Both the position numbers and the translations under genes were made by a program. A DNA stretch of 64,000 bases. It comes from Chryseobacterium sp. SN22 (GTDB lineage: Bacteria > Bacteroidota > Bacteroidia > Flavobacteriales > Weeksellaceae). Below the pieces are notes generated by a model. It did no database searches and was not told where the DNA came from. It saw only the letters and a program-made list of their open reading frames with translations. Shown here piece by piece: positions 43,702 through 59,072 of the stretch. The number at the start of each line of letters is the position of its first letter. Position 1 is the first letter of the stretch. The stretch spans positions 124,001 to 188,000 of the forward strand of contig NZ_VTSX01000001.1 of assembly GCF_008329705.1 (NCBI RefSeq), written 5' to 3'.

Positions 43702-43972
43702 GGGAAATATTTAAAATGTAAAATTAAAATTTTCCTGAGAGAAGTGCAATTTTTAAGGGAGGTAAATGGGAGTATTTTCTATTTTTCCGGGGAAGACTGA
43801 TTTATTTTTAAACGCGGGTTTGTAAAGAATTCATTTGATATTGATATGCCCATTTTTCGTTCGCAAAGGCGTTTAACTGCGCCGAATCTTCGATTTTACT
43901 CAGCAAATGGAGCAGAACCGGTAAGTTTGTTTCTGTTAAATTCTGCGTAAATATGAAGCTGAGGCAGACTGT

Positions 43973-44084
43973 CCTAGCCCGGATAGGAACGGCATCCTTT
44001 TTTGTTTTTTTGCTGGCTATATCCATTATGGTCCTAAAATACTGAAAAACAAAAAAGATACAGTGGATAGCCGGATTAAGCTCC
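43973..44084 (+). ncRNA. conserved intergenic element with variable hairpin, copy 1
   Basis: The ends CCTAGCCCGGAT (43973) and TGGATAGCCGGATTAAGCTC (44064-44083) are shared with the element at 57809-57934. In between, CTTTTTTG (43997) pairs with CAAAAAAG (44050) to form the base of a longer AT-rich hairpin, with ATCC before it and GGAT after it as a second pairing. It lies between priA and the AEC transporter gene. From memory this kind of element is widespread between genes in flavobacteria and may belong to a named RNA family such as Flavo-1; that is unverified. Confidence 0.5.
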
Positions 44085-44146
44085 TTACAAGCAGAAGGTT
44101 TGAGAGTTAGAGAGTTTGCAAGTTTGAAGGTTAGGGTTATTTTGGA

Positions 44147-45055
44147 TTAAAAGAAGAATTCCGTCAATCGGTACCAGATGGCAGAGGTGAAAAGGCCGGC
44201 GATGATGCTGAAACCTATTGTTAAATTGGTGAGTTTTGTATTCAATCTGAATGGTTCTGCGATGATGCTTGCGGTAAGAACCGTCGGCATTGCGGCTTCA
44301 AATACGGTGATTTTTGCCACATTGCCTTTGATGCCGGCAATTAAAGCAAGGCCTAAAACCAATGTCGGAGCCAGAATCAGCTTGTAGAACATGGAAACAG
44401 ACATCTGGGGAATGAATTTTTTCCAGCCGTTGAATTTCAGCTGAAGCCCTACAGAAAATAGAGCCAGCGGGCTTACGGTTGCCGCAAGCTTGTCAAAAAA
44501 AGGTTCTGCCGATGAGAAATCGATAAACCTTGACAGAACCAGGGCCGCAATGCAACCGATGAGCGGCGGAAAGGTAATGAGCCTTTTCAGGATAAACTTT
44601 GTACTTACTTCTCCGGATCGGCCTCCTCCTTTTACAGCAGCGATGATGCCCAGTGTCGAAAGGGCCAGAAACATGGTCTGGTCACAGATCACGGCAATGC
44701 TTAAAAGGTTTTCACCGTAAAATGCGGCCACCAGCGGGAAGCCGATAAACGAAGTATTGCTGTACCCACTGATGAGTTCCAGCGTACTTTGAGAACGCCC
44801 GGAGTAGCCTTTGTAACGGCTGTAAAACTTCATAAAGAAAAAACAGAAGACCGAGATGAGGAAGGTAGCGACGATGGGAAAGAGCATTTCAGCCGTCCAC
44901 TGCACTTTCGGAAGGTATTTGAACGAAACGGCAGGAAGCGCCAGATAGAGGATCCAGGTGTTGATGCCTTTATGTGCATCGGGGTGGATGGATTTTGTTG
45001 CCTTGAACACCATTCCCGCGATGATGCATACTGCAATCAGAACAAAATTGACCAT
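44147..45055 (-). CDS. AEC-family (auxin efflux carrier-like) transporter
   Basis: A 302-residue membrane protein with about ten hydrophobic segments in two halves, matching AEC transporters: PDAHKGINTWILYLALPAVSF near the start, SGYSNTSFIGFPLV in the middle and EAAMPTVLTASIIAEPF in the second half. Characterised bacterial members carry malate or other organic anions. The substrate here is unknown. Its start lies 45 bp from the convergent-direction small membrane protein at 45100, same strand, so they might be co-transcribed. Confidence 0.88.
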   Translation of the reverse strand: MVNFVLIAVCIIAGMVFKATKSIHPDAHKGINTWILYLALPAVSFKYLPKVQWTAEMLFPIVATFLISVFCFFFMKFYSRYKGYSGRSQSTLELISGYSNTSFIGFPLVAAFYGENLLSIAVICDQTMFLALSTLGIIAAVKGGGRSGEVSTKFILKRLITFPPLIGCIAALVLSRFIDFSSAEPFFDKLAATVSPLALFSVGLQLKFNGWKKFIPQMSVSMFYKLILAPTLVLGLALIAGIKGNVAKITVFEAAMPTVLTASIIAEPFRLNTKLTNLTIGFSIIAGLFTSAIWYRLTEFFF

Positions 45056-45099
45056 ACTTCAGAATCTGCGGCAAAGGTACGGCTGAAAATTCTATTTCT

Positions 45100-45735
45100 T
45101 TAAATTTTGGAGCGAAGTTTCCTCCATTTTTCTGCGATAAATACCATGAATTTCAAAATAACCGCTGTTAAAACAACCAATATCATTGACGGAAAACTGA
45201 GCAACCGGAGGAAAAAGCTCTGCTCGACGATTTTTTCCTTTGTGCCGGATAATTTCCAGATTGCAGGAAAGCGGGTACCCAGATTTCCATATTTTTCGTG
45301 GTTGCGGGTAATAAAAAATGTATTGACTTTCTTTATTTTCGCTGTCCCGTCATCGTAGAAACTAAAACTTTCTTTTCGTTCGGAAGAAGGATATACCGTA
45401 ACTTTCCTACCCGTCTGCCTTGTTACGATGATGTTATTGCGGGTATCAATGCCCAGGTGAAACGGTTTTCCCGATGTATCTTTTACCCTGAAAGATTCTA
45501 TAAAGTTTCCTGCTCTGTCGTATTTTTGAATAATCGAATAGAAATCATCACCTATATAGATATTCTCATGGCTATCAACAACGAATCCGGCAAAATCATT
45601 AATTGGCAGTTCGGTTTTTATTTTAAAATCGGTCCATGTTATAATAGCTTTTGGTATGAATATCAAGAAGAATATAAAAAACACGAAATCGGAGATTTTC
45701 TTTATTATTTTCATATACGAATCCATATTATTCAT
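45100..45735 (-). CDS. membrane protein with NHL-like beta-propeller fragment
   Basis: A 211-residue protein with an N-terminal membrane segment (FVFFIFFLIFIPKAI), an extracytoplasmic part with NHL-like strands (GFVVDSHENIYIGDD, IQKYDRAGNFIESFR, LGIDTRNNIIVTRQ), and a C-terminal membrane segment (FPSMILVVLTAVILKFMVFI). Its first ATG overlaps the beta-mannosidase stop by 8 bp, suggesting coupling; ATGs at 45726 and 45714 are alternatives. Only two to three blades are present, far too few for a closed propeller. Function unknown. Confidence 0.65.
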   Translation of the reverse strand: MNNMDSYMKIIKKISDFVFFIFFLIFIPKAIITWTDFKIKTELPINDFAGFVVDSHENIYIGDDFYSIIQKYDRAGNFIESFRVKDTSGKPFHLGIDTRNNIIVTRQTGRKVTVYPSSERKESFSFYDDGTAKIKKVNTFFITRNHEKYGNLGTRFPAIWKLSGTKEKIVEQSFFLRLLSFPSMILVVLTAVILKFMVFIAEKWRKLRSKI

Positions 45736-48199
45736 TCATCGTATCCCAAAGGCTCATTACCTCAATTCTTTCCAAAGGTTCTGATAGGATAATCCTTTTG
45801 GATGTATTCGGAAGCAAATCGAAGAAGTTATCGCTGAAGTGGGTATTTCCGATGAGATAAACATCTCTTGCCAGGACATCGGTGGAGATTTCGATTTCGG
45901 TAGTGGAGATCTTTTTGATCTGAATGGCCGGCCTGGAAAGTTTGAGGTCTTTCGGACGGCTGAAATAAAACAGTTTTTCCGCTTTTCCGGCAGACCCGTT
46001 AAAAGCAAGCCTTAAAACCGAACGGGATAAATCAAATTCAGCAAATTCAGATTTTTCTATTGTCAGATGCTTACCCGATGAATTGGCAGGTAAGTGATCG
46101 GCAGCATCCAAAACCCATAATGGCTGTCCCTCAAAACTTAAAAGTTCTACCTGTAAACCTCCATCGAAGTCAGTTAATGCGTCATTTAACAGGTAAATAT
46201 CATACGCTTTTTCTTTTTCCTCCACTAAGATGGCAACCTCTTCAAAACTTCTTTTCACCTGGTAATGCAGGGCTTTCCAGTTGCCCAGATAATCAATGGA
46301 CGACCACGAAACGACCGGCCAGCAATCGTTGAGCTGCCAGTACAGGGTTCCCATGTTGTAAGGCCTGGCGCGGCGGTGGGCTTCAATGGCAATCTGCATG
46401 CCGCGTGCCTGAAGCAACTGGGAAATGTAGTTGTATTTCACAAAATCTTCCGGCACTACATAATCGCGTTTCATATAGTTGTTGATGATTTCCCAGCCTC
46501 TCGAATGCTTTTCGTGGGCTTTGATGGTTCCGTTCTGTAAGCTTAAATCCGGTTTTCCTGAGAACATTGATTTTGTGGTTTCCAGCGTCGGCATTCCCTG
46601 GAAGCCATATTCCGAAGCAAAACGCGGTACCTTTTCATTAAAAATTTCAAACGGCTGTTCGCCCCACCAGACGCCCCAGTAATGGGAATCGCCTTCCGTC
46701 AGGCTTTCTTTGTGTCCCCAGCCGATGGACGGAGAACTCGGCCAGTAAATTTGTTTATCGGCCGTTGCGTATTTTTTGATGGCGTCAGGGATTACCTCAT
46801 GAAAGATGGTTTTGTAATCTTTCCAGACCTGTACCGAATCCTCTTTTGAATAGCTTAATTGCTTTTGGTAGCCCCAATTGACGATGGCTTCATTGATCTC
46901 ATTGTTTCCGCACCATATAGCCAGCGAAGGATGGTTCTGAAGCCTTTCGATCTGGTCTTTCACTTCCGCTTCCAGATTTTCCCGGAAATTTTCATCAGCC
47001 GGATAAAAGCTTCCGGCAAACATAAAATCCTGCCAGACCAAAATCCCGTTTTCGTCACAGGCCTTGTAAAATTCATCGTCTTCGTAAATGCCGCCGCCCC
47101 ATACGCGGATCATGTTCATATGGGCCTCTTTACAGTCTCTGATCAGCTTCTGATATCTTTCTTTGGTCATGCGGGGAGAAAAGCTGTCCCCTGGAATCCA
47201 GTTCGTTCCTTTGGCAAACATCGGCTGGCCGTTTACTTTAAAGTAAAACGATTTTCCTTTGGCATCTTTTTCCTGAATTAATTCTATTATTCTCAGTCCG
47301 ATCCGCTCTTTTTTTTCAGTGATGATCTTTGAATCTTTCTGTAGGGTGATTTTAATGTCATACAGTGTTGGTTGTCCCCACCCATTCGGCTGCCAGAATT
47401 TTGGGTTCCGGATCTGATACGGCAATGAAATGATGTTGATCCCGGATTTTAAAGCAATATCCTGAATCTGATTATTGATGGAAAGGGTATATTTTCCGGC
47501 ATTCTGTGCAAAGATTTCTGCATGAACGGACAGATCTGCTTTCTGTGGTGTGAGTCTTACCTGTTCGATCTTTACGGTTTCAAGTTGAGCCTCATTCCAG
47601 AACCTGAGGCTGACGTCTTTCCAGATTCCCGCCGTCACTAACCTCGGGCCCCAGTCCCACCCGAATTGATATTGTGCCTTCCTCACAAAACTTCTCGGCG
47701 ATTCCGGTAGGGTAAAAGGAATTTTTTGGGCCAATTCTTTTCCAACCCTTACAGCAGATCTGAATTTCACCTGAAGCCTATTTTCACCCTGCTTTAAATA
47801 GGACTTGGCCGGAATGGCCCATGTTCTGAACATATTGTCCGTTTTTTTCAGCAGTTTTCCGTTCAGATAAATTTCAGCGAAAGTATCCAGTCCGTCAAAT
47901 ACCAGATCAATATGCTGGTTCTTTAGCTCTGCATCAGAAACGATAAACTGAGTCTGATAATCCCAGTCTTCATTTTCCACCCACTGTGCTTTTTTTTCGT
48001 TTTCGTCTTTGTATGGATCGGGAATGACGTTATTGTTCATCAGGTCCAGATGAACCGTCCCCGGAACTTTAGCCGAAAGCCACTTACTGTCTTTTGTATT
48101 TTTAAACTGCCAATCCTGAGAAGACAGAGAACGTTCTTTGATCTGGGCATTTACCAAAAACTGAATAAAAAAGGAAGAAAAAAGTAAAATTTTGTTCAT
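45728..48199 (-). CDS. exported beta-mannosidase (GH2)
   Basis: An 823-residue glycoside hydrolase family 2 enzyme. It has a signal peptide (1-18), an N-terminal sugar-binding domain (GTVHLDLMNNNVIPDPY; FDGLDTFAEIYLNG), an immunoglobulin-like domain, and a TIM barrel with acid/base Glu434 (GNNE, 431-434) and nucleophile Glu530 (SEYGFQG). The RVWGGGIYEDDEFY and PYNMGTLYWQLNDCWPV segments are characteristic of beta-mannosidases. It removes terminal beta-1,4-mannose, as in the core of N-glycans after trimming. It opens a group with glycosylasparaginase and hexosaminidase, separated by a 506-bp gap. Confidence 0.93.
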   Translation of the reverse strand: MNKILLFSSFFIQFLVNAQIKERSLSSQDWQFKNTKDSKWLSAKVPGTVHLDLMNNNVIPDPYKDENEKKAQWVENEDWDYQTQFIVSDAELKNQHIDLVFDGLDTFAEIYLNGKLLKKTDNMFRTWAIPAKSYLKQGENRLQVKFRSAVRVGKELAQKIPFTLPESPRSFVRKAQYQFGWDWGPRLVTAGIWKDVSLRFWNEAQLETVKIEQVRLTPQKADLSVHAEIFAQNAGKYTLSINNQIQDIALKSGINIISLPYQIRNPKFWQPNGWGQPTLYDIKITLQKDSKIITEKKERIGLRIIELIQEKDAKGKSFYFKVNGQPMFAKGTNWIPGDSFSPRMTKERYQKLIRDCKEAHMNMIRVWGGGIYEDDEFYKACDENGILVWQDFMFAGSFYPADENFRENLEAEVKDQIERLQNHPSLAIWCGNNEINEAIVNWGYQKQLSYSKEDSVQVWKDYKTIFHEVIPDAIKKYATADKQIYWPSSPSIGWGHKESLTEGDSHYWGVWWGEQPFEIFNEKVPRFASEYGFQGMPTLETTKSMFSGKPDLSLQNGTIKAHEKHSRGWEIINNYMKRDYVVPEDFVKYNYISQLLQARGMQIAIEAHRRARPYNMGTLYWQLNDCWPVVSWSSIDYLGNWKALHYQVKRSFEEVAILVEEKEKAYDIYLLNDALTDFDGGLQVELLSFEGQPLWVLDAADHLPANSSGKHLTIEKSEFAEFDLSRSVLRLAFNGSAGKAEKLFYFSRPKDLKLSRPAIQIKKISTTEIEISTDVLARDVYLIGNTHFSDNFFDLLPNTSKRIILSEPLERIEVMSLWDTMNE

Positions 48200-48705
48200 T
48201 ATAATTTTTTTAATGACTCTATTATAAGTTGCAGGGCTTATGTGGATTTCTTAATCACAAAAGCTGTTAATACATGAGAAACATAAGATGTAAAGATAAA
48301 TTTTTACGCATATTTTAGAGCATTAAAGAAGAAAATCAAAGATTTCAATAATGTTATGGTGCCGGTGGCTGAGCGGAGCCGAAGCCACGCATTATGTGAG
48401 AAATATTTATCACAAAGCTTTTTTAATACATTAGGAATAAAGATAAATTTTTGAAAACAGAAATACCAGAGAAGTCTTTAAAATCACACATCTATTGATG
48501 ATTGGCTGTAAACATTTTTCATGATCTTATGGTTAAAAACATAGTTTCGAGCGCTCAGCCACCGAACAGCAGTTAAGCATAATGCAAAAAAATCTTTTGA
48601 CTTTTCTTCTGTGTTTTAAAATACTTTCAAAGCAGGAAAACTCTAATTTTATGTGGCTCATGTGTTAAAAAGCTTTTGTAAACCGTTAATCAGATAAATT
48701 TAAGT
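48200..48705. repeat. intergenic stretch with dispersed hairpin repeats
   Basis: No gene. A REP-like hairpin, GTGGCT (48365-48370) and AGCCAC (48383-48388), encloses GAGCGGAGCCGA; CCGGTGGCTGAGCGG inside it is the inverse of 31187-31201, and CGCTCAGCCACCG recurs at 48552-48564. Several segments (ACATAAG, AAAGCTTTTnT, AATCAAAGATTT) recur in the 31.0-31.3 and 22.8-23.1 kb gaps. Confidence 0.65.
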
Positions 48706-49368
48706 TCACTTAGTTTTCAAAGCCACAACTTCTTCTGCACTGGCAAAAGCACTGCCATCCGTAATAGCAGACGAATGGAAATACTCTGCTTTGGTAAATT
48801 CCCTGATTTCTTCAATATTCGTTGAGCGCAGGCCACCGCCGACCAGGATTTCAATTCTCCCGGCGGACAGTTCCACCAGCTTTTCCAGGTTTTCTCTGCC
48901 TTCGGAGACATTGGGTTTCTGACCGGAAGTAAGGATGGTGGTGAATCCGCAGCCGATGACCTTTTCCAATGACTGTCCAAGGTCTTTGGCCCGGTCGAAA
49001 GCCCGGTGGAAAGTACACGGACAGGGTTGAGCCAGTTCCACTAATTCTTTATTCTGTAAAGTATTTACCTCATCATTTTCATCTAAAATTCCAAATACAA
49101 AGCCGTCCACCGACAATGATTTTAAAAGAATCAGATCGGATTTCATCTGTTCGAATTCTTCATCGGAATAGGTAAAATCTCCTCCGCGCGGACGGATCAT
49201 CACAAATATCGGAATGCTGATTTTTTCACGCAACTGTTTTACGGTTTCAAAGTTCGGTGTGGTTCCGCCTTCGCTTAATCCGTCACACAATTCGATCCGG
49301 TCGGCTCCATTTTCAAAAGCGATGATGGCAGATTCCGGGTTGAAGCAGGCTATTTCTATTTTTGACAT
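48706..49368 (-). CDS. cutC: CutC-family protein
   Basis: A 220-residue TIM-barrel protein using ATG 49368 (MSKIEIACFNPESAIIA); a TTG at 49380 is less likely. Motifs include GADRIELCDGLSEGGTTPNF, MIRPRGGDF and FHRAFDRAKD. CutC was named for copper tolerance in E. coli, but that role is disputed and the real function is uncertain. In Bacteroidota it is very often beside glycosidases and glycosylasparaginase, as here, which hints at sugar or glycopeptide metabolism. It follows the glycosylasparaginase gene by 35 bp on the same strand. Confidence 0.92.
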   Translation of the reverse strand: MSKIEIACFNPESAIIAFENGADRIELCDGLSEGGTTPNFETVKQLREKISIPIFVMIRPRGGDFTYSDEEFEQMKSDLILLKSLSVDGFVFGILDENDEVNTLQNKELVELAQPCPCTFHRAFDRAKDLGQSLEKVIGCGFTTILTSGQKPNVSEGRENLEKLVELSAGRIEILVGGGLRSTNIEEIREFTKAEYFHSSAITDGSAFASAEEVVALKTK

Positions 49369-49403
49369 CTGAGGGTTCAAAGTTAATGTTCAAGATTCAG
49401 GGT

Positions 49404-50399
49404 TTATTTCAAAGCAAATCCGGGTTTTTCCAGACGGTTTCCCTTTTGGTCGTGTACAGCAAAGCTGAACCCGTCCTGAATGCAGTAAGAGCCGTACTCT
49501 CCTTTTTTATTAAGAGCGATAAAACCAACCTGAATGTCTTTCAGATTTTTATTTCTTCTTCTGGTAATCTGTACGATGCGTTCTACTGCTTCTCTGCAGG
49601 CCTGTTGCGGTGTTTTTCCCTGACGCATCAGTTCCACTACCAGATGGGTTCCCACCATCCTGATCACTTCCTCGCCATGGCCGGTTGCCGTGGCTGCCCC
49701 TACTTCATTGTCCACAAATAATCCGGCCCCGATAATCGGGGAATCGCCAACCCTGCCGTGCATTTTGAAGGCCATTCCACTCGTGGTACATGCCCCGGAA
49801 AGGTTTCCCTGGGCATCCAGAGCGATCATTCCGATGGTATCGTGGTTTTCGATATTGACGACCGGCATGTATTTGCTGTCTTTCAGCCACTCTTTCCATT
49901 CCTTTTCGGATTCGGGAGTGAGCAGACTTTCTTTTTTAAACCCCTGCGATACAGCGAACTGCAAGGCGCCGTCGCCCACCAGCATCACGTGCGGCGTTTT
50001 TTCCATGACCGCCCGGGCTACTGAAATCGGGTTTTTAATATTTTCGAGGCAGGCTACCGAACCGATGTTGTAGTTTTCATCCATAATGCAGGCATCCAGC
50101 GTTACCCTTCCGTCCCTGTCCGGCCGGCCGCCATAGCCTACGCTTCTCTCGGTAGGATCATCTTCCACCAAACGCACTCCTCTCTCCACAGAATCCAAAG
50201 CTCTCCCACCTTTGCCAAGGGTTTTCCAGGCTTCCTCATTGGCTCTCAATCCAAAATCCCAGGTAGACAGGACGATGGGTTTATTGATGGTTCTATCATT
50301 AATTGCAGTCGTATTCTTTGCTATCAGATCGAGCGGATTCAATAACAAAGCGGATGATGCAATGGCGGTGTTTTTTATAAATTTTCTGCGTGAAGACAT
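49404..50399 (-). CDS. N4-(beta-N-acetylglucosaminyl)-L-asparaginase (glycosylasparaginase)
   Basis: A 331-residue Ntn-hydrolase precursor. A twin-arginine-like leader (SRRKFIKNTAIASSALLL) targets export. Autoproteolysis is expected before the catalytic Thr188 in ENHDTIGMIALD, giving two subunits. STWDFG, GRPDRDG and RVGDSPIIGAGLFVDNEVG match the flavobacterial enzyme of known structure. It cleaves the GlcNAc-Asn bond in free glycosylasparagine, the last step of N-glycoprotein breakdown. Lies between the hexosaminidase and cutC, same strand. Confidence 0.95.
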   Translation of the reverse strand: MSSRRKFIKNTAIASSALLLNPLDLIAKNTTAINDRTINKPIVLSTWDFGLRANEEAWKTLGKGGRALDSVERGVRLVEDDPTERSVGYGGRPDRDGRVTLDACIMDENYNIGSVACLENIKNPISVARAVMEKTPHVMLVGDGALQFAVSQGFKKESLLTPESEKEWKEWLKDSKYMPVVNIENHDTIGMIALDAQGNLSGACTTSGMAFKMHGRVGDSPIIGAGLFVDNEVGAATATGHGEEVIRMVGTHLVVELMRQGKTPQQACREAVERIVQITRRRNKNLKDIQVGFIALNKKGEYGSYCIQDGFSFAVHDQKGNRLEKPGFALK

Positions 50400-50483
50400 G
50401 GTGGTTTAAAGTTTAAGGTTCAGATTCAAGTTAAAAGTTCAGGGTTGAGATTTTCCGTCAGATAATTTTGAACTTTGAATTTA

Positions 50484-52742
50484 TCAGTTCGCTCCGATTT
50501 CGTCTACGAACAGCCAGGCTTTGGAATCGGCACCCGGATTTCCGGCAGGAATGATTCCTGCATTTTCTATTTCGATTTTTAAATATTTCGTTTTCTGATT
50601 GCCGACCTGCAGCCTGATTTTTCCTTTGGCTGCAAGAATTTCCTCTTTTCCGATTTCTTTGACCATTTTAAAGTCGGTTTCGTTATCCGAGATAAGAATC
50701 CGGGCGGATCTGGCAAAATGGATCCAGCTTCCTTTATTGTCCAGGGTATTGAAATAAACTTCCGAAAACGGTGTTGCCTGTCCGAAATCGATGGTGGCCA
50801 CCACGTCTTTTCCCTGGAAGCCCAGCCAGGTTTTTCCCAGCTGACGTTGGTTTCCGATAATCCCGTCGACCAAAGTGAAAGCCCCTCCGAAAGAATAGTT
50901 TTCGCTAGGCTCCTGTTCCAGTGTAATTTTTTTGCCTGTGGTTTTTGAAATCTTAAAGTCCTGCGTAGAAACCGCACTTTTCAGTTGTCCGCTTTCAAAA
51001 TACGCTGATTTCATGGTCATGGATTTTGAAACGGGAATCGGGTTGGTGTAGGTTGGTGAGTCTGTCTGCGGCTCTGTACCATCTGTTGTGTATCTGATTC
51101 CCGCCGTTTTCTGTGAGGTGGAAAGTTCATAAGCTACTCCATTGCTGACCGGGATTACCTTTCCGTTGATGTTGTAAATACTTCTTGCATAATTAACCCC
51201 TATTTTATCCAGCGTTCCGAATTCATTGATCACGCGGCCTTCAAATTCTTTGTAATTTTTCGGGTCCGAAGTTCCCCAGGCAACTTCAGAAAGGGCCAGC
51301 AATCTCGGAAAGATCATATACTGAACCTGTTTGAAATCCAGAATGTATTCGGTCCAGAGGTTAGCCTGCACCCCTGAGATATATTTTGACTGCTCCGCAT
51401 TCAATTCTTCAGGAACTGGCTGATAGGAATAGACTTTATCCAAAGGGGTAAATCCTCCGAAAGCATTCGGTTCCGTAGCCGGATCTCCCTGGTAATGGTC
51501 GAAATAACAATACGCTCCCGGTGTCATAACGGCGAAATGCCCGGACTTGGCCGCTTCCACGCCGCCTTTAATCCCGGTCCAGCTCATTACCGCTGCATTC
51601 GGGGCCAGTCCGCCTTCCAGGATTTCATCCCAGCCGATGATTTTTCTGCCTTTTGAATTGACATATTTTTCAATCCGATGGATGAAGTAGCTTTGGAGCC
51701 CGTGTTCGTCCTTCAGGTTATTTTTTCTGATCAGTTCCTGACAGTGCGCACATTCTTTCCATCTTGTTTTCGGGCATTCATCGCCTCCGATATGGATGTA
51801 CTGCGAAGGAAAAAGCTGGATGACTTCGTTCAATACATTTTCCAAAAAGGTAAAGGTTTCTTCTTTCGGGCAGAAAACATCATCGAATACGCCCCATTTG
51901 GTCGCCGGTTCAAAAGGCCCTTTGGTACAGGCCAGTTCGGGATAAGCGGATAAGGCCGCTAAGGCATGCCCCGGCATTTCAATTTCCGGAACTACGGTAA
52001 TATGCCGTTCGGCTGCATATTCTACAACTTCTTTGATCTGTTCCTGGGTATAAAAATACGGCCCGTACGGTTTCCCGTCGAAGGTATTATCGACATAGGC
52101 TCCGATCATGGATTCTTTTCTTTTGGAACCGGTCTGCGTCAGTTTAGGATATTTTTTGATTTCGATTCTCCAGCCCTGGTCATCGGTTAAATGCCAGTGA
52201 AAGGTATTCAGTTTGTACATGGCCAGATAATCGATATACTGCTTTACTTCTTCTACGGTGAAAAAATGGCGGCAGACGTCAAGGTGCATTCCGCGCCACG
52301 CAAATTTCGGCTCATCTTCAATCTTCATCGCGGGAATCTTTCCAGAACCCTTATATTGTCTCAGGAGCTGAGTCAAAGTCTGAAGTGCCAGAAAATAGCC
52401 TTGTTTGGTATTGGAACTGATCACAATCCGACGCGGGGAAATGTCGATGGCATATTTCTCCCTTTTTTCCCGGTCTTCTTTGGATTGGGACGGAAAAAGA
52501 ACATTTACCAGATGAGCGACATTTCTTTTACCCATACCGAATTTCAGTATTCCCTGAGTCTGTTTTTTAAAATAACCGGTTTCCTGCTGAGGAAGATCGT
52601 GATCGAGCTTAAAATTTTCCGGGATGATAAACTCTCCTTTTGAAAATTCCAGTTTCTGAGGATATGGAATTAAATTTAACCGGTTCTGAGTAAAAAACAA
52701 GCTTGAAATCAGGACCGAAAATACCAGTAAAAAACGCTGCAT
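50484..52742 (-). CDS. exported beta-N-acetylhexosaminidase (GH20)
   Basis: A 752-residue enzyme. It has a signal peptide (1-19), a GH20b-like N-terminal domain (about 22-145), a TIM barrel with the catalytic Asp321-Glu322 pair in HIGGDE, a fibronectin-like chitobiase C-terminal domain (YTTDGTEPQTDSPTY) and an F5/8-type C-like carbohydrate-binding domain at the end (NTLDNKGSWIHFA, ending DEIGAN). It removes terminal GlcNAc or GalNAc with substrate assistance. With the beta-mannosidase and glycosylasparaginase it suits dismantling of N-glycans or chitin oligomers. An imperfect -7 (TATATTCG) is 22 bp upstream. Confidence 0.95.
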   Translation of the reverse strand: MQRFLLVFSVLISSLFFTQNRLNLIPYPQKLEFSKGEFIIPENFKLDHDLPQQETGYFKKQTQGILKFGMGKRNVAHLVNVLFPSQSKEDREKREKYAIDISPRRIVISSNTKQGYFLALQTLTQLLRQYKGSGKIPAMKIEDEPKFAWRGMHLDVCRHFFTVEEVKQYIDYLAMYKLNTFHWHLTDDQGWRIEIKKYPKLTQTGSKRKESMIGAYVDNTFDGKPYGPYFYTQEQIKEVVEYAAERHITVVPEIEMPGHALAALSAYPELACTKGPFEPATKWGVFDDVFCPKEETFTFLENVLNEVIQLFPSQYIHIGGDECPKTRWKECAHCQELIRKNNLKDEHGLQSYFIHRIEKYVNSKGRKIIGWDEILEGGLAPNAAVMSWTGIKGGVEAAKSGHFAVMTPGAYCYFDHYQGDPATEPNAFGGFTPLDKVYSYQPVPEELNAEQSKYISGVQANLWTEYILDFKQVQYMIFPRLLALSEVAWGTSDPKNYKEFEGRVINEFGTLDKIGVNYARSIYNINGKVIPVSNGVAYELSTSQKTAGIRYTTDGTEPQTDSPTYTNPIPVSKSMTMKSAYFESGQLKSAVSTQDFKISKTTGKKITLEQEPSENYSFGGAFTLVDGIIGNQRQLGKTWLGFQGKDVVATIDFGQATPFSEVYFNTLDNKGSWIHFARSARILISDNETDFKMVKEIGKEEILAAKGKIRLQVGNQKTKYLKIEIENAGIIPAGNPGADSKAWLFVDEIGAN

Positions 52743-52824
52743 CTGATGGGTTTAAGATTTAGGCGAATATACTTATTTTCTGAAAATTTACAGAGGCATT
52801 TAACTTATTAAAACAGAAAAGATC

Positions 52825-52832
52825 TAATTTTG
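52825..52832 (+). promoter_or_regulatory. -7 element of DUF4197 gene
   Basis: TAATTTTG matches TAnnTTTG and ends 11 bp before the ATG at 52844. Confidence 0.55.
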
Positions 52833-52843
52833 TAAAAAAATAA

Positions 52844-53647
52844 ATGATGAGAAAAACATTTCTATTGGTTGGCGGACTTTTATTCTCTGTTTCTTCACAG
52901 GCACAGATCTTTGATGCCATTAAAACAGTGGTGAAAGACAAAACAGGCATTGACCTGAACCAGCCTAAACCAACCACCACCAACCCCTACCCTGCAACTT
53001 CAGGTTCTGCAGGCGCTTCTGCAAATCTTGGAAGCCTCAGCTCCTTACAGATTTCATCAGGACTGAAGGAAGCGCTGAGCCTGGGAGTCAATGAAGGCGT
53101 AAAAAAACTGGGCGTCACCGACGGATTTTTCAGAAACGAAGCCGTAAAAATTTTAATGCCTGAAAAGCTGAGAAAAATTGATGCTACTCTGCGTTCAATC
53201 GGACTGGGAAGCCTGGCTGATCAGGGTGTCAAACTACTGAACCGCGCCGCAGAAGATGCCGTAACGGAAGCCGCACCGATTTTCACCAATGCCATTACTT
53301 CAATGACGATTACCGATGCCAAAAACATTCTGTTGGGAAGCGATAATGCAGCGACCAGTTACCTGCAAGGGAAAACCCAAAGCCAACTGTTTACCGCCTT
53401 CCAGCCGAAAGTGAAAGCTTCACTGGGTAAAGTAGGGGCCGACAAGGTGTGGTCTAACCTGATCTCGAAATACAACACTTTCACGGGGCAATCGGTAACC
53501 ACCGACCTGAATGCCTACGTAACGACCGAGACCATCAACGGGGTCTTCAAAATGGTTGCGGAAAAAGAAAGCGGCATCCGCAATACTCCGGCGATGCGGA
53601 CAACGAGTATCCTGAAAAAGGTATTCGGGGCACAGGACGGGCGTTGA
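52844..53647 (+). CDS. exported DUF4197 protein
   Basis: A 267-residue protein with a signal peptide (1-20, ending SSQA) and a mostly helical DUF4197 domain from about residue 65: SGLKEALSLGVNEGVKKLG, LMPEKLRKIDATLRSIGLG and AAPIFTNAITSMTITDAKNIL. A low-complexity Pro/Thr/Ser linker (about 40-60) joins them. The family is widespread in exported bacterial proteins; its function is unknown. ATG at 52847 would shorten it by one residue. Single-gene unit on the plus strand. Confidence 0.88.
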   Translation: MMRKTFLLVGGLLFSVSSQAQIFDAIKTVVKDKTGIDLNQPKPTTTNPYPATSGSAGASANLGSLSSLQISSGLKEALSLGVNEGVKKLGVTDGFFRNEAVKILMPEKLRKIDATLRSIGLGSLADQGVKLLNRAAEDAVTEAAPIFTNAITSMTITDAKNILLGSDNAATSYLQGKTQSQLFTAFQPKVKASLGKVGADKVWSNLISKYNTFTGQSVTTDLNAYVTTETINGVFKMVAEKESGIRNTPAMRTTSILKKVFGAQDGR

Positions 53648-54059
53648 TATCCTTTTTCCTTGATGAAAAAAGAAACAAAAAATCAAGACCCGGAACTCTC
53701 CGCTAAAAATAAAACCTGAAGCCTGAAATTCCCACACTTGCGCGATTTCCTTATTCATTCTCCGTTTTTAGTTTTGCCCCGCGCTCCGGAAAGTAGGAAT
53801 TGCTTAACGGAATCAGGTTTTATTTCCTTAATGCTCCGATTTCCTGGGTCAATTAAATAACAAAAAGCTGTCTCCGTTGAAACAGCTTTTTCTAATATTG
53901 TCAGTTGTTATTCATAAATAGTGAGGCTAAAAAGCTAACTACAGCCTTTCAATTCATTTACCGGCAAACCGTATGACCAAGAATGCCTCAAAAGAAACGG
54001 CCCTTATCTAATAAGTTGTATGTTATGCCAGAAGCCAAAAGCCTGCAGCCAGCCGCTTA
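53648..54059. other. intergenic stretch with a hairpin terminator at 53862-53892
   Basis: No supported gene. The hairpin AAAAAGCTGT / ACAGCTTTTT (53862-53871 and 53882-53891) with flanking A and T runs can terminate transcripts from both sides, although it is 215 bp beyond the DUF4197 stop. Confidence 0.6.
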
Positions 54060-54713
54060 TTAAAACTGCATTTCAGGGATTTCACCTTCAATGATCAGGT
54101 CGGCTTCCGTTGATTGGATAATATGTTCTACGGAAATGCCCGGTGCTCTTTCAACAAGCTTGAATCCGGCAGGGGTAACATCCAAAACCGCTAACTCGGT
54201 AACGACTCTTTTTACACAATTTACCCCCGTTAAAGGAAGTGTACATTTTTTAAGGATTTTGCTTTCTCCGGCTTTGTTCACGTGCATCATCGCCACAATG
54301 ATATTTTCCGCAGAAGCCACGAGATCCATCGCACCGCCCATTCCTTTCACCATCTTTCCCGGAATCTTCCAGTTGGCGATATCCCCGTTTTCGGCGACTT
54401 CCATGGCTCCGAGAATGGTGAGATCCACTTTCTGCGCACGGATCATTCCGAAACTGAAGGCGGAATCAAAGAAAGATCCACCGTCCAGAATGGTAATCGT
54501 CTGTTTTCCGGCATTAATGATGTCTGCATCTTCTTCCCCTTCGAAAGGAAACGGCCCCATTCCCAATACCCCGTTTTCACTCTGGAACTCCACGGAAAGA
54601 TTGTCCGGCACATAATTAGCCACCAGTGTCGGGATCCCGATTCCCAGGTTTACATAATATCCGTCTTTCACTTCTCTGGAAATTCTCTGTGCAATTTGTT
54701 CTTTAGTCAGCAT
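54060..54713 (-). CDS. scoB: 3-oxoacid CoA-transferase subunit B
   Basis: A 217-residue beta subunit of a succinyl-CoA:3-ketoacid CoA-transferase. The catalytic Glu that forms the CoA thioester is Glu46 in QSENGVLG. GIGIPTLVANY and NWKIPGKMVKGMGGAMDL are family blocks. It moves CoA from succinyl-CoA to acetoacetate in ketone-body or branched-chain carbon use. Its partner scoA is 2 kb away on the same strand, separated by an ABC transporter gene on the other strand, an unusual split of a pair that normally adjoins. Confidence 0.93.
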   Translation of the reverse strand: MLTKEQIAQRISREVKDGYYVNLGIGIPTLVANYVPDNLSVEFQSENGVLGMGPFPFEGEEDADIINAGKQTITILDGGSFFDSAFSFGMIRAQKVDLTILGAMEVAENGDIANWKIPGKMVKGMGGAMDLVASAENIIVAMMHVNKAGESKILKKCTLPLTGVNCVKRVVTELAVLDVTPAGFKLVERAPGISVEHIIQSTEADLIIEGEIPEMQF

Positions 54714-54807
54714 AGCTTAATCTTATCCTGCCAAATTAGCCATTTTTTCAGAATTATGAAATATTTTCTTTCTTATCCTATGGTAAATTTTAGCACTCAA
54801 TTTGTTG

Positions 54808-54815
54808 TAAATTTG
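54808..54815 (+). promoter_or_regulatory. -7 element of ABC exporter gene
   Basis: TAAATTTG matches TAnnTTTG and ends 7 bp before the ATG at 54823. No convincing -33 partner. Confidence 0.5.
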
Positions 54816-54822
54816 TAAACTT

Positions 54823-56619
54823 ATGAAAGTTTTACTGCATTACCTGAAACCCTACCGTCTCCTGATTTTCATTTCCCTGCTCTTAGCCTCTGTAAACCAG
54901 GTTTTTTCGCTGTTTTCACCTGCTATTACAGGAAATATCCTGGACCGGCTGGTTACCCATCCCAATTTCTTTGATAAGGAGAAAACCATCCCGAGAAACC
55001 TGAACGAATACCTGTATGGAAATGATATATACCACGGTGTTTTCTATTTTCTGGGGCTTTTAATCGGAACTGCCATGATCAGCCGTATTGCGAAAGCTTT
55101 CCAGGATTATGTGGTGAACGTAATCATCCAGAAGTTCGGGGCAAAGATTTTTACCGACGGACTGAGGCATTCGATGCGGCTGCCGTATCATGAATTTGAG
55201 GACCAAAGGAGCGGTGAAACGCTTTCGATCCTGACGAAGGTGCGTGAAGATACGGTGAAGTTCATCAATAATTTCATCAACATCTTCTTTGGGATTCTGG
55301 TAAGTATCATTTTCGTTTCAGTATATGCAATACGCCTGCACTGGTCGATCATGCCGGTGTATATTATAGGAATCATTTTTATTGCCGTTGTTACGAACCT
55401 GCTGAGCAGGAGAATTAAAACCATCCAGAAAAGCATTGTAAAGGAAACTACTGATCTGGCGGGAAGCACAACGGAAAGTTTACGGAATATTGAGATCGTT
55501 AAAAGTTTAGGCCTTACCAATCAGGAAGTGGAGCGGCTGAACAACAATACCTACAAAATATTAAACCTTGAGCTTAGAAAGGTAAAAAGCATCCGTTCCC
55601 TGAGCTTTGTGCAGGGAACGCTGGTGAACTTTTTACAGCAGATGATTACTTTTACTTTGCTTTTATTAATTTTCAAAAATATCGTTACCCCGGGACAATA
55701 CCTGTCGCTGATGTTTTACGGGTTCTTTATATTCGGACCGATGCAGGAAATCGGAAATATCATTATTTCTTACCGTGAAGCGCAGGCATCGCTTAATAAT
55801 TTTGACCGGGTGATGAAAAAACAAGTGGAACCTAAACCGTTAATGCCTAAAAAGATCGGGGCGATTGAAGAACTGGAATTCCAGAAGGTTTCTTTCCAGC
55901 ATCAGACGGCTCAGTATAAAGCGCTCAATTCGATTTCATTTGATGTAAAAAACGGGGAAACTGTTGCTTTTGTAGGACCGAGCGGTTCGGGGAAAAGTAC
56001 GTTGGTGAAATTGCTTGTCGGTTTATACCGGCCGCAGGAAGGTTCTATTTTTTATAATCATGTGGACGGAAAAGAGTTTGATTTTGATGAGCTGAGAAAC
56101 CAGATCGGCTTCGTTACACAGGATACCCAGCTTTTTGCAGGAACTATCCGGGAGAATCTTTTGTTTGTGAACCCGGCTGCTACCGAAGAAGACCTGCAAT
56201 CAGCTTTGAAAAAATCCAGCTGTACCGGTCTTCTGGAGCGTGCTGAAAATGGAATTGAAACGGTGATCGGTGAAGGCGGACTGAAGCTGAGCGGCGGTGA
56301 AAAGCAACGGATTGCAATTGCCAGGGCTTTGTTGCGGAAACCGCACCTTCTGATTTTTGATGAGGCTACTTCTGCCCTGGACAGCATTACCGAAGAAGAA
56401 ATTACGACGACCATTAAAGAAATTTCTAAAGAAAAAGAACAGATTACCGTCCTGATTGCTCACCGTCTGAGCACCATCATGCATGCCGACCGGATTTATG
56501 TCCTGGAACGCGGACAGATCGTAGAGACCGGATCGCACCTAAAACTCATTGAAGAGAAAGGCCTGTATTATGCGATGTGGAGGCAGCAGATCGGGGAAAG
56601 GAAGACGATGGGAATCTGA
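54823..56619 (+). CDS. ABC-type exporter (fused permease and ATPase)
   Basis: A 598-residue half-transporter. It has six membrane segments (about 15-330) and a C-terminal ATPase with Walker A GPSGSGKST, signature LSGGEKQRIAIARALL, Walker B LLIFDEATSALD and the H-loop in IAHRLSTI. The type IV (MsbA/multidrug) fold works as a dimer to export lipids, peptides or drugs. The substrate is unknown. It is a single-gene unit lying head-on between the two CoA-transferase genes. Confidence 0.93.
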   Translation: MKVLLHYLKPYRLLIFISLLLASVNQVFSLFSPAITGNILDRLVTHPNFFDKEKTIPRNLNEYLYGNDIYHGVFYFLGLLIGTAMISRIAKAFQDYVVNVIIQKFGAKIFTDGLRHSMRLPYHEFEDQRSGETLSILTKVREDTVKFINNFINIFFGILVSIIFVSVYAIRLHWSIMPVYIIGIIFIAVVTNLLSRRIKTIQKSIVKETTDLAGSTTESLRNIEIVKSLGLTNQEVERLNNNTYKILNLELRKVKSIRSLSFVQGTLVNFLQQMITFTLLLLIFKNIVTPGQYLSLMFYGFFIFGPMQEIGNIIISYREAQASLNNFDRVMKKQVEPKPLMPKKIGAIEELEFQKVSFQHQTAQYKALNSISFDVKNGETVAFVGPSGSGKSTLVKLLVGLYRPQEGSIFYNHVDGKEFDFDELRNQIGFVTQDTQLFAGTIRENLLFVNPAATEEDLQSALKKSSCTGLLERAENGIETVIGEGGLKLSGGEKQRIAIARALLRKPHLLIFDEATSALDSITEEEITTTIKEISKEKEQITVLIAHRLSTIMHADRIYVLERGQIVETGSHLKLIEEKGLYYAMWRQQIGERKTMGI

Positions 56620-56747
56620 TGGATGATGGTGATGAATAATGGAAGTTTAAAATATTGAGGATATTCAGGACGGGCAACGCAGAACAGTAAAAGTTTAAAG
56701 AATTATTTATTGTTGTGCACTTTGTCTTTTTCAACAAATACAAAAAT

Positions 56748-56774
56748 AAAACCGTGAAGTGCTCACGGTTTTTA
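56748..56774. terminator. bidirectional terminator between exporter and scoA
   Basis: AAAACCGTGA and TCACGGTTTT form a perfect 10-bp stem around a 5-nt loop, with A and T runs on either side. It sits between the convergent stops. Confidence 0.9.
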
Positions 56775-56777
56775 TCT

Positions 56778-57479
56778 TTAATCTCTTTTTCTTACAGTTC
56801 GTTGTTCGATTCTTTTTTCGAATTTTTCGCCCTGGAAAATCCTCTGGATCATGATTCCGGGAATATGGACCTGGTTCGGATCCAGTTCGCCCGGCTCTAC
56901 CAGCTCCTCTACTTCGGCAATGGTAATTTTCCCGGCTCCCGCCATCGGATGATTGAAGTTCCTGGCGGATCCTTTAAAGACAAGGTTTCCGGCATGATCT
57001 CCTTTCCAAGCTTTTACGATCGCAAAATCGGCTTCATAGGCAAATTCGAGGATGTGGGGTTTTCCTTTGAAATCTTTTACTTCCTTGCCTTCCGCTATTT
57101 CAGTCCCGAAGCCGGCAGGGGTATAGAAAGCAGGAATTCCCGCCTGTGCCGCCCTGCATTTTTCAGCAAGTGTTCCCTGAGGCGTCAGTTCCACTTCCAG
57201 TTCTCCGGAGAGCATCTGTCTTTCGAACTCGGCATTTTCTCCCACGTAAGACGAAATCATTTTTTTGATCTGCCTTTTGTGAAGCAGCAGGCCCAGTCCG
57301 AAATCATCCACTCCGGCATTGTTTGAGATGCAGGTAAGGTCTTTTACATCGCTTTCCACCAACGCATTGATTGAATTCTCCGGGATTCCGCAAAGGCCGA
57401 AGCCTCCCAGCATCAGGGTCATTCCGTCCTGTATCCCTTCAATGGCTTCCTTTGCATTTTTTACTCTTTTATCTATCAT
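56778..57479 (-). CDS. scoA: 3-oxoacid CoA-transferase subunit A
   Basis: A 233-residue alpha subunit. The CoA-binding glycine-rich segment is [10 protein letters not shown] (25-34), followed by [17 protein letters not shown] and [27 protein letters not shown]-type sequence. It pairs with ScoB. A terminator directly after it shows that it is not co-transcribed with scoB, so subunit balance must be set by two promoters. No TAnnTTTG element was found upstream. Confidence 0.93.
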
Positions 57480-58049
57480 GAACTATCAGATTTTCTGTTG
57501 GCTAAATTTAATACTTTTTCTTATATCCGGACGAATGGGAAATCATTTCATTGGAGAATGGTAATTCTACGGGATTGTGTTAAAGTATAAACAGACCTTA
57601 AGATAACCCGAAGTAAAATTTGACTCAAAGGGTTGGAAACTGGAAGTTTTCCAGTCAATATCAACAATAAACTCCGATGTATCAAACCTTTTTAAGGCTT
57701 GTGGAATATTGAATTTAACTGTGCCTGAATATAGACGGCATACCATCTATACCCTGATGGAGACAATAATCTTATTGAAGGCCTGATGTAAGAAATGAGA
57801 TCTACTGCCCTAGCCCGGATCGCAGCGGTTACCCCACAGCGGGGTTGGAAGTTTGGGAGCGGCTGGGTTTGACAATGGAGAGCCTGGAAAGCAGCGGCGC
57901 GAGGAGTATAAGCGGAGAGCCGGATTAAGCTCCCGAGAAAAAGAATTTCGACTGGCCCGCCGCTACCATCATTTGGTACCGTGAGGAGCCAATAAGAAAC
58001 GTGGTCTGAATTTTGGTTGTGGTATGCTACACCAATTAAATTACATTAT
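57480..58049. other. 570-bp non-coding stretch containing an RNA-like element
   Basis: Apart from the element at 57809-57934 no gene or clear promoter was seen. Short inverted pairs such as ACCATCATTTGGT (about 57967) are present. Confidence 0.4.
57809..57934 (+). ncRNA. conserved intergenic element with variable hairpin, copy 2
   Basis: The ends CCTAGCCCGGAT (57809) and GCGGAGAGCCGGATTAAGCT (57912-57931) match those of the element at 43973-44084, but the middle is different and GC-rich, with a hairpin ACCCC-ACAGC-GGGGT (57831-57845). Two copies with constant ends and dissimilar middles suggest selection on the ends. Confidence 0.45.
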
Positions 58050-58430
58050 ATGGAAACGAAAGAGATTTCAAGACTTGCGCTGGGCGCTTTTCTGATTACG
58101 GCCGGTATCGGGCACCTTACTTTTGCAAGAAAAGCTTTCCAGGCACAGGTTCCGGAATGGGTACCGCTGGACAAGGATGACACAGTTGTATATTCCGGCT
58201 ATGCAGAGATTGCTTTGGGAACTGCAATGATTGCCACGCCTAAGAAATATAGAAAGACCATGGGACGAGTAGTTGCCGGATTTTTTGCGGCCGTGTTCCC
58301 GGGAAATATTGCCCAGTACAAAAACAGAAGGGATTCTTTCGGCCTGAATACCGATAATGCAAGGCTCGGCAGGCTGTTTATGCAGGCTCCACTGATTGCC
58401 TGGGCATTGAAATCGACGGATGAAGAATAG
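58050..58430 (+). CDS. DoxX-like small membrane protein
   Basis: About 126 residues from ATG 58050 (METKEISRLALGAF); an upstream in-frame ATG at 58017 adds 11 residues. Four hydrophobic segments and the opening ALGAFLITAGIGHLTFARKAF and FPGNIAQY match DoxX-like/DoxD-like proteins. The family is linked to quinone or thiol redox at the membrane, but the function here is unknown. The stop codon lies within the first unit of a 5-bp tandem repeat that follows. Confidence 0.78.
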   Translation: METKEISRLALGAFLITAGIGHLTFARKAFQAQVPEWVPLDKDDTVVYSGYAEIALGTAMIATPKKYRKTMGRVVAGFFAAVFPGNIAQYKNRRDSFGLNTDNARLGRLFMQAPLIAWALKSTDEE

Positions 58431-58646: not shown

Positions 58647-58715
58647 CAACCTGTTATTCAACCTCTGACGAAGTCCGTGTAAGTTGCTTAGCCTTAACAT
58701 TTTATTTATTTAATA
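58647..58715 (+). promoter_or_regulatory. rplS leader, possible autoregulatory RNA
   Basis: The 5' leader is about 65 nt. GCAAC (58646-58650) can pair with GTTGC (58682-58686), enclosing a CTCTGACGAAGTCCGTG segment. Ribosomal-protein genes often carry such leaders for feedback control; this one is only a candidate. Confidence 0.4.
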
Positions 58716-59072
58716 ATGGATTTATTAAAGTACGTACAAGACAAGTACATTACAAAAAAAGAATTCCCTGAATTCAAAGCCGGTGATACCATCACTGTGT
58801 ATTACGAGATTAAAGAAGGACAGAAAACAAGAACCCAGTTCTTCAAAGGAACAGTTATCCAATTGAGAGGTACCGGTTCTACAAAAACGTTCACCATCAG
58901 AAAAATGTCCGGTGATGTAGGTGTAGAAAGAGTATTCCCGATCAACATGCCTGCTCTTCAGAAAATCGAAGTTGACAGAAGAGGTAGAGTTAGAAGATCA
59001 AGAATCTACTACTTCAGAGACCTTAGAGGTAAAAAAGCGAGAATTAAAGACGCTGCTTACAAGAAGAAATAA
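58716..59072 (+). CDS. rplS: 50S ribosomal protein L19
   Basis: 118 residues, the usual length for L19. Recognisable blocks are FKAGDTITVYYEIKEG, FKGTVIQLRGTGSTKTFTIR, VGVERVFPINMP and the basic end RRGRVRRSRIYYFRDLRGKK. L19 lies at the 30S-50S interface. Here the gene stands alone rather than with rpsP-rimM-trmD, with its own strong promoter, leader and terminator. Confidence 0.97.
   Translation: MDLLKYVQDKYITKKEFPEFKAGDTITVYYEIKEGQKTRTQFFKGTVIQLRGTGSTKTFTIRKMSGDVGVERVFPINMPALQKIEVDRRGRVRRSRIYYFRDLRGKKARIKDAAYKKK

Follow-up and report, generated by a model that had tools for sequence, protein, structure and literature searches.

Repetitive extragenic palindromic (REP) repeats and the related bacterial interspersed mosaic elements (BIMEs), with their RAYT transposases, are dispersed intergenic imperfect palindromes that occur in many copies. 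A role as terminators or as blocks to 3′ exonucleases has been proposed for REP hairpins. Integron attC sites also form an imperfect hairpin, with a constant base and a variable terminal structure. Here we analyze Flavo-1 (Rfam RF01705), a known, dispersed multi-copy hairpin of Bacteroidota, starting from two elements (element 1 and element 2) in a 64,000-nucleotide stretch of the Chryseobacterium sp. SN22 genome (contig NZ_VTSX01000001.1, positions 124,001 to 188,000; this whole stretch is the window, and positions are given in its numbering). We find that many Flavo-1 copies are conserved at the same sites across species, that the whole core of the hairpin is exchanged at some of these fixed sites, and that copies are preferentially oriented against the replication fork in two genomes and outward from ribosomal RNA (rRNA) operons in four.

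Like REP/BIME repeats, Flavo-1 is dispersed, intergenic, imperfectly palindromic and present in multiple copies, but its hairpin is larger and has constant internal loops and an exchangeable core. It shares with attC sites a constant base and a variable terminal structure; unlike attC sites, its copies are single, dispersed and located at gene borders.

Weinberg et al. (2010; PMC2864571) list Flavo-1 in their Table 1 as a probable RNA that is probably not cis-regulatory, with no function assigned. In Flavobacterium psychrophilum, some hits are sense and some antisense to transcribed regions, and many fall outside such regions (PMC9723704); the passages on Flavo-1 in this 2021 transcriptome study give no clue to its function. 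Elsewhere, PMC9029176 has a mention and a table row on Flavo-1, PMC3765529 and PMC7682815 contain the accession RF01705, and a REP survey (PMC12306157) includes a table with two Flavobacterium rows. The constant ends, the order of stems, the purine-rich 3 × 3 loops and the AT-core form of RF01705 are the same as those seen here. The last eight positions of the Rfam consensus structure are unpaired, so the model lacks the closing helix across a bulge that we describe below. We newly observe that copies are conserved site by site, that cores are exchanged at fixed orthologous sites, and that copies are oriented relative to the replication fork and bracket rRNA operons; the exchange, the fork orientation and the bracketing are not described in the main-text passages on Flavo-1 that were covered. 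With sites that are kept, a core that can be exchanged wholesale, and an orientation relative to forks and rRNA operons, the comparison of orthologous sites makes Flavo-1 function testable.

Flavo-1 elements in the window and in other genomes

The preliminary description of this DNA had reported two elements, at 43973-44084 and 57809-57934, with shared ends and unlike middles, and this was correct. The sequence CCTAGCCCGGAT starts at both 43973 and 57809, and AGCCGGATTAAGCTC is exact in both elements (44069-44083 and 57918-57932). A scan of the window for the shared ends, allowing up to three mismatches, found no match beyond the two elements. Shuffled sequence gives 1.41±1.16 matches with three mismatches allowed, so the scan alone is uninformative and it is the exactness of both matches that counts. 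The middle of element 1 is AT-rich with a T6/A6 stem, and that of element 2 is G-rich. In ViennaRNA, the core of element 1 forms a clear hairpin; for the long apical part of element 2 the fold is less clean and out of the family register.

Element 1 matches Flavo-1 above the 42-bit gathering score of Rfam (E 3.1e-13 over the whole window; Table 1). Element 2 scores under it (E 6.1e-6 in an 801-base stretch), and we place it beside Flavo-1 because of its arms and because AT and GC cores are exchanged at orthologous sites. It is a form whose score in the current Rfam model falls short of the cut-off. Seven of the nine GC-core copies in the SN22 genome also fall under the cut-off, and copies with a third type of core (see below) score 29 to 34.5 bits or are missed.

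The SN22 genome contains at least 37 Flavo-1 copies at E ≤ 1e-4, with 30 above the cut-off. All copy numbers are lower bounds, since two copies of the related genome G013 (L226 and L228) escaped the genome search and were found by flank comparison. Copies are present in 26 of the 39 genomes searched (SN22 included); genomes of the genus have 0 to 53 each, and one genome from a different family has 91. Across the class, a match at E ≤ 1e-6 is present in 56 of the 198 genomes sampled (21 of the 56 list a single match), with up to 22 candidates scored per genome. The pattern AGCCNNGATNG is too short for counting copies, as it has 121 matches in the SN22 genome versus 60 for its reversed control.

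A hairpin with a constant base

In the SN22 and G013 copies, the constant base runs from its 5′ end through AGC, a short GC-rich stem, an A·G mismatch, two base pairs, a purine-rich 3 × 3 loop, two further base pairs and a second 3 × 3 loop to the distal core. On the 3′ side, a bulge that by eye is usually five nucleotides and in a few copies four (AAAAA, ATTAA, TTCCC and others) lies between the stem and GCT, and pairing of GCT with AGC can give a 3-bp closing helix. This helix covaries at site L028, where AGTC/GACT is replaced by AGTT/AACT.

The outer stem covaries strongly, and the hairpin is therefore well supported. In a count anchored by sequence, with one copy from each of 40 sites, 188 of 200 outer-stem cells are Watson-Crick versus 114.6±6.7 for randomly dealt 3′ arms (maximum 136 over 1000 shuffles). 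We regard this count as the fair test because the others chose the 3′ arm by pairing. Using all anchored copies (100 of the 158 in four species, the 58 elements without a unique 3′ anchor being dropped), 479 of 500 cells are Watson-Crick versus 284.6±11.0 at random. Two further counts lean towards pairing because their 3′ arms were selected by pairing score: the five variable outer pairs of 134 copies include 650 Watson-Crick, 8 GU, 3 AC and 9 other states in 670 cells, and within orthologous sites 20 of 37 variable pair columns are purely Watson-Crick (18 of 35 when a cluster with a stray paralog is removed), with GU states in 9 of the variable columns and AC in 2. The arms pair yet hold mismatched 3 × 3 loops, so they are not plain inverted repeats. 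One interpretation in the preliminary description was a structured RNA family with a variable stem; the family, its structure and the variation of its core stand, and an action as an RNA is one possibility.

Site conservation and core exchange

We compared SN22 (G000) with three related species (G013, G014 and G063), in which 158 elements represent 56 sites. All four species have an element at 25 of these sites, and at least two species at 42; the cluster of L030, which contains a stray paralog (L191), is included in both numbers and that of L186/L248, with an unclassified core, in the 42. For 34 of the 36 SN22 copies compared, the site is shared with at least one of the other three species. 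In 171 ortholog pairs of the same core type, each arm has a mean identity of 0.96 and the core one of 0.79, compared with 0.635 and 0.652 for the two flanks at a distance of 10 to 60 bases.

Three core types share one base. The AT core (ATCCTTTTTT...AAAAAAGAT) occurs in 98 of the 158 copies, the GC core (TACCCCACAGCG...GCGAGGAGTA), which judged by eye may contain a k-turn-like loop, in 54, and a third core (TGTCTGAGC...GCGAGTAG) in five; one further copy is unclassified. G013 also holds a 36-base form without a core, which could derive from recombination between direct repeats in the arms. Two matches above cut-off to Acido-Lenti-1 RNA (RF01687), at 3987-4032 and 4117-4161 of L228, lie no more than about 0.8 kb from a third-core copy of Flavo-1.

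Four of the 42 shared sites (L003, L006, L013 and L023) have different core types in different species with the place of the element unchanged, and neither of the two irregular clusters mentioned above is among these. Both flanks are homologous across the exchange pairs shown for L013, L023 and L003. L006 is the site of element 1, where only the downstream flank aligns well and synteny rests on the two neighboring genes; SN22 has the AT core there, and G013, G014 and G063 have the GC core, as does L104 of G047. At L013/L286 the outer arms differ too, which we read as replacement of the whole element at an unchanged place. By eye, the upstream flanks of L013, L286, L023 and L293 contain a second repeat-like sequence beside the Flavo-1 copies (TGAATTTTGCTTTGCAAGTGAATGGTGAAT ... 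ATTCACCATTCACCGGCAAAGCCGAATTCACC).

By pattern, the element 1 site is occupied in the five closest of 28 loci that have both neighboring genes. In two more distant species (L117 and L129), a copy missed by the pattern appears by eye to lie elsewhere in the same gap. Of 16 loci that have both genes flanking element 2, 7 hold an element at its site; the nine gaps without it are 130 to 369 bases long, with one case of 844. Most of the unoccupied sites examined have diverged flanks. At L022 and at L188 of G013, the element is absent from the partner genome and the gap has diverged. The right half of L001 has no match among those listed in G013 and G014, and L025 and L007 have no match longer than 100 bases in the G013 stretches predicted by collinearity. 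The G013 site L192 is occupied in G013, G014 and G063. In SN22 its flanks align well, and the sequence is shorter by about 220 bases that include the element, far more than the element itself, without evident duplication.

These patterns bear on whether Flavo-1 is a dispersed mobile repeat, similar to a miniature inverted-repeat transposable element or to REP, that is no longer autonomous. An enzyme that is now lost would have spread it in the past with the hairpin as its substrate, copies would remain by inheritance, and cores would be exchanged by gene conversion. We think this possible though on balance improbable. The multi-copy and patchy distribution (0 to 91 copies in 39 genomes; 56 of 198 genomes of the class), the seemingly displaced copies at L117 and L129, and the whole-element replacement at L013/L286 all fit such an origin, and the nearly pure Watson-Crick covariation suits a DNA hairpin. 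However, arms that are 96% identical over flanks of about 64% at fixed sites exceed what is expected of decaying repeats, and the empty site at L192 is neither element-sized nor flanked by an evident duplication. The range of copy numbers does make past dispersal still likely. A passive mobile element, the other interpretation in the preliminary description, is not supported for the present day, given the 34 of 36 copies at shared sites and the lack of a Y1/REP transposase in SN22 (E ≤ 1e-4) or beside a copy in 30 fetched transposase loci.

The search for such a link was confined to Y1_Tnp (PF01797) at E ≤ 1e-4. Y1_Tnp has no match in SN22, or in G023, G010 and G024, which have 29, 13 and 14 Flavo-1 copies. 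Flavo-1 copy number does not follow Y1_Tnp, which is present in 24 of the 39 genomes, and the 30 Y1_Tnp loci that were fetched, out of 85 matches, contain no copy by pattern. On both counts Flavo-1 differs from REP repeats with RAYT transposases, and a REP/RAYT link is unsupported. A plasmid or phage origin is argued against by the lack of a match between a single AT-type query and phage and plasmid records. In G012, which has two Flavo-1 copies, Y1_Tnp matches number 15, and 13 of these form three groups with the same or nearly the same score.

Orientation relative to rRNA operons, replication and genes

In G013, G007, G010 and G019, a 5S gene is found within about 6.5 kb of 24 copies. All 15 copies upstream of an rRNA operon are antisense to it, and all nine just downstream of the 5S gene are sense; in either position, the element turns its 5′ end towards the operon. 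The operons were confirmed in seven loci, and this bracketing occurs in four of the six genomes tested. About 1.3 kb separate the upstream copy from the 16S gene in the G013 operons (L202, L203 and L207), and at three of the four this gap contains an open reading frame (ORF) of 129 to 135 amino acids in simple ORF calls.

The leading strand has more G than C. Sampled GC skew switches at about 0.45 and 2.65 Mb in G013 and at about 3.27 and 0.45 Mb in G003, and the G excess of the leading strand fits the strand of the rRNA operons. After removal of the seven rRNA-linked G013 copies, G013 has 29 of its 38 remaining copies oriented against the fork and G003 has 17 of its 21 (together 46 of 59). 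The dnaA gene of G013 is at 3301035, far from the GC-skew origin at about 0.45 Mb.

By simple ORF calls, 23 of 45 G013 copies are antisense between co-directional genes, 10 are sense, 7 lie between divergent genes and 5 between convergent genes. In 35 of 45 copies, the gene nearer to the element is the one on its 3′ side (median distance 122 versus 265 on the 5′ side, p=0.006). An alternative is that Flavo-1 is an element of mRNA ends, with its reverse complement in the 3′ untranslated region of the right-hand gene, where it would be a terminator or a block to 3′ exonucleases. In the same G013 set, the stop codon of the right-hand gene faces the element in 28 copies, 18 of them within 140 bases, as expected for an element at mRNA ends; in the other 17 a gene start is on that side, and the copies downstream of rRNA operons are on the other strand relative to transcription. 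The flank consensus of 56 sites is A-rich on the 3′ side and shows no T-run adjoining the hairpin on either strand, and we reject an intrinsic terminator on that basis. A constant C·A mismatch in the core stem, which is U·G on the reverse-complement strand, is a further point for a role at mRNA ends. We consider this role rather unlikely.

A possible role at gene borders

We favor the reading, with a probability of roughly 0.35, that Flavo-1 is a vertically kept, cis-acting directional hairpin, as RNA or single-stranded DNA, at gene borders; the covariation of the stem, the conservation of sites, the exchange of cores, the orientation relative to forks and rRNA operons and the nearness of genes on the 3′ side speak for it. 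A cis-acting role of each copy as a directional border could explain why copies are kept. A putative protein would read the constant base of the hairpin, with its bulge and purine loops, tolerate different cores, and affect transcription or replication passing over the site from its 5′ side. Transcription out of rRNA operons or opposed to the fork would be limited in this way. Cores would be replaced when one dispersed copy converts another by way of the short constant arms. A narrower and more doubtful version of this is a directional chromosome-border element that, met 5′ to 3′ by transcription exiting rRNA operons or opposed to the fork, would block it with a dedicated protein, and whose core would be swapped as a cassette between dispersed copies with the outer stem and site fixed. 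If the border reading is true, Bacteroidota have a transcription or replication boundary unlike REP, matS or KOPS (FtsK orienting polar sequences); if it is false, Flavo-1 is still shown by the data to be a family of repeats that keeps its hairpin arms and evolves through exchange of the core between them.

Several observations weigh against a border function. The 24 rRNA-linked copies represent four lineages and not 24 events, because copies within a genome duplicate the surroundings of the operon. One G013 copy between tandem operons also lies 1.1 kb downstream of, and antisense to, the second operon. No rRNA-linked copy was found in G003, which has 21 copies and whose main contig carries seven 5S genes, or in G002, with 9 copies and a single 5S match found, and the stretches around copies fetched from G264, G105 and G242, which belong to other families, contain no rRNA. 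G008, G012, G017 and G021 carry at most three copies and live without more. The fork bias depends on where the switch points are placed (p 0.0005 to 0.014 for G013 and 0.007 to 0.08 for G003), leaves out two G013 copies found later, and is partly confounded with gene orientation given the 23 of 45 copies that are antisense between co-directional genes. Signs of RNA or DNA, and of the strand that folds, point both ways. Wobbles in the outer stem are rare (GU 4 and AC 3 with one copy per site, 9 and 3 over 100 copies), and the C·A mismatch is constant in 152 of 152 AT and GC copies, which reads as U·G on the opposite strand. The distal AT core has 59 T·G versus 3 A·C on the annotated strand, in an uncertain register. 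Folding energies are mildly under those of shuffles (z -1.2 for the annotated strand and -1.6 for its reverse) and do not separate the strands.

A family of trans-acting small RNAs, with the variable core as the targeting part, would account for the covariation and for the Rfam type label (Gene; sRNA), and we consider it quite improbable. The promoter motif TANNTTTG, which was the sole motif tried, occurs five times on the annotated strand and not once on the other within 80 nt upstream of the 56 sites. Five motifs cover few copies, however, and over 260 nt upstream the density is equal on both strands (0.89 per kb). Dozens of copies that are each kept at their own site would be unusual for a trans-acting RNA. 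The listing as a probable RNA that is probably not cis-regulatory (PMC2864571, Table 1) agrees with a small RNA. The many F. psychrophilum hits outside transcribed regions in the passages of PMC9723704 do not, and the mixture of sense, antisense and untranscribed hits reported there is ill-suited to one stand-alone small RNA.

Features of the window

The two elements lie in different gene contexts (Table 1). Element 1 is flanked by two minus-strand genes, priA and a membrane-transporter gene, and the stop codon of the latter is about 65 bases from the element. Element 2 lies between the divergent genes for a CoA-transferase subunit and a small protein of 126 amino acids, which has no Pfam match at E ≤ 1e-5.

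Table 1. Positions of the Flavo-1 elements, their parts and the adjacent genes in the window.
Feature	Positions	Strand	Remarks
PriA helicase gene, left of element 1	41254..43701	-	Pfam PriA_3primeBD, DEAD, PriA_C
Flavo-1 element 1, AT-core form	43973..44083	+	RF01705, 69.7 bits at 43972-44081
Element 1, 5′ outer stem (AGC+CCGG)	43976..43982	+	Partners 44080-44082 and 44071-44074; pairing from family covariation
Element 1, exchangeable core, AT type	43993..44060	+	GC-type core at the same site in G013, G014, G063
Element 1, bulge ATTAA (5 nt)	44075..44079	+	Between closing helix (AGC/GCT) and outer stem
Membrane transport protein gene	44147..45055	-	Pfam Mem_trans; ORF call
CoA-transferase subunit gene, left of element 2	56778..57479	-	Pfam CoA_trans
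Flavo-1 element 2, GC-core form	57809..57932	+	RF01705, 36.3 bits at 57808-57930, below Rfam cut-off
Element 2, exchangeable core, GC type (TTACCCCACAGCG ... GCGCGAGGAGTAT), hypervariable tip	57829..57909	+	
126-amino-acid gene, right of element 2	58050..58430	+	Found in 26 of 59 genomes of the genus

Further to the right of element 2, the window contains an L19-Flavobacteria ribosomal protein leader (RF03130, 35.8 bits) at 58659-58686 on the plus strand, upstream of the L19 gene at 58716-59072.

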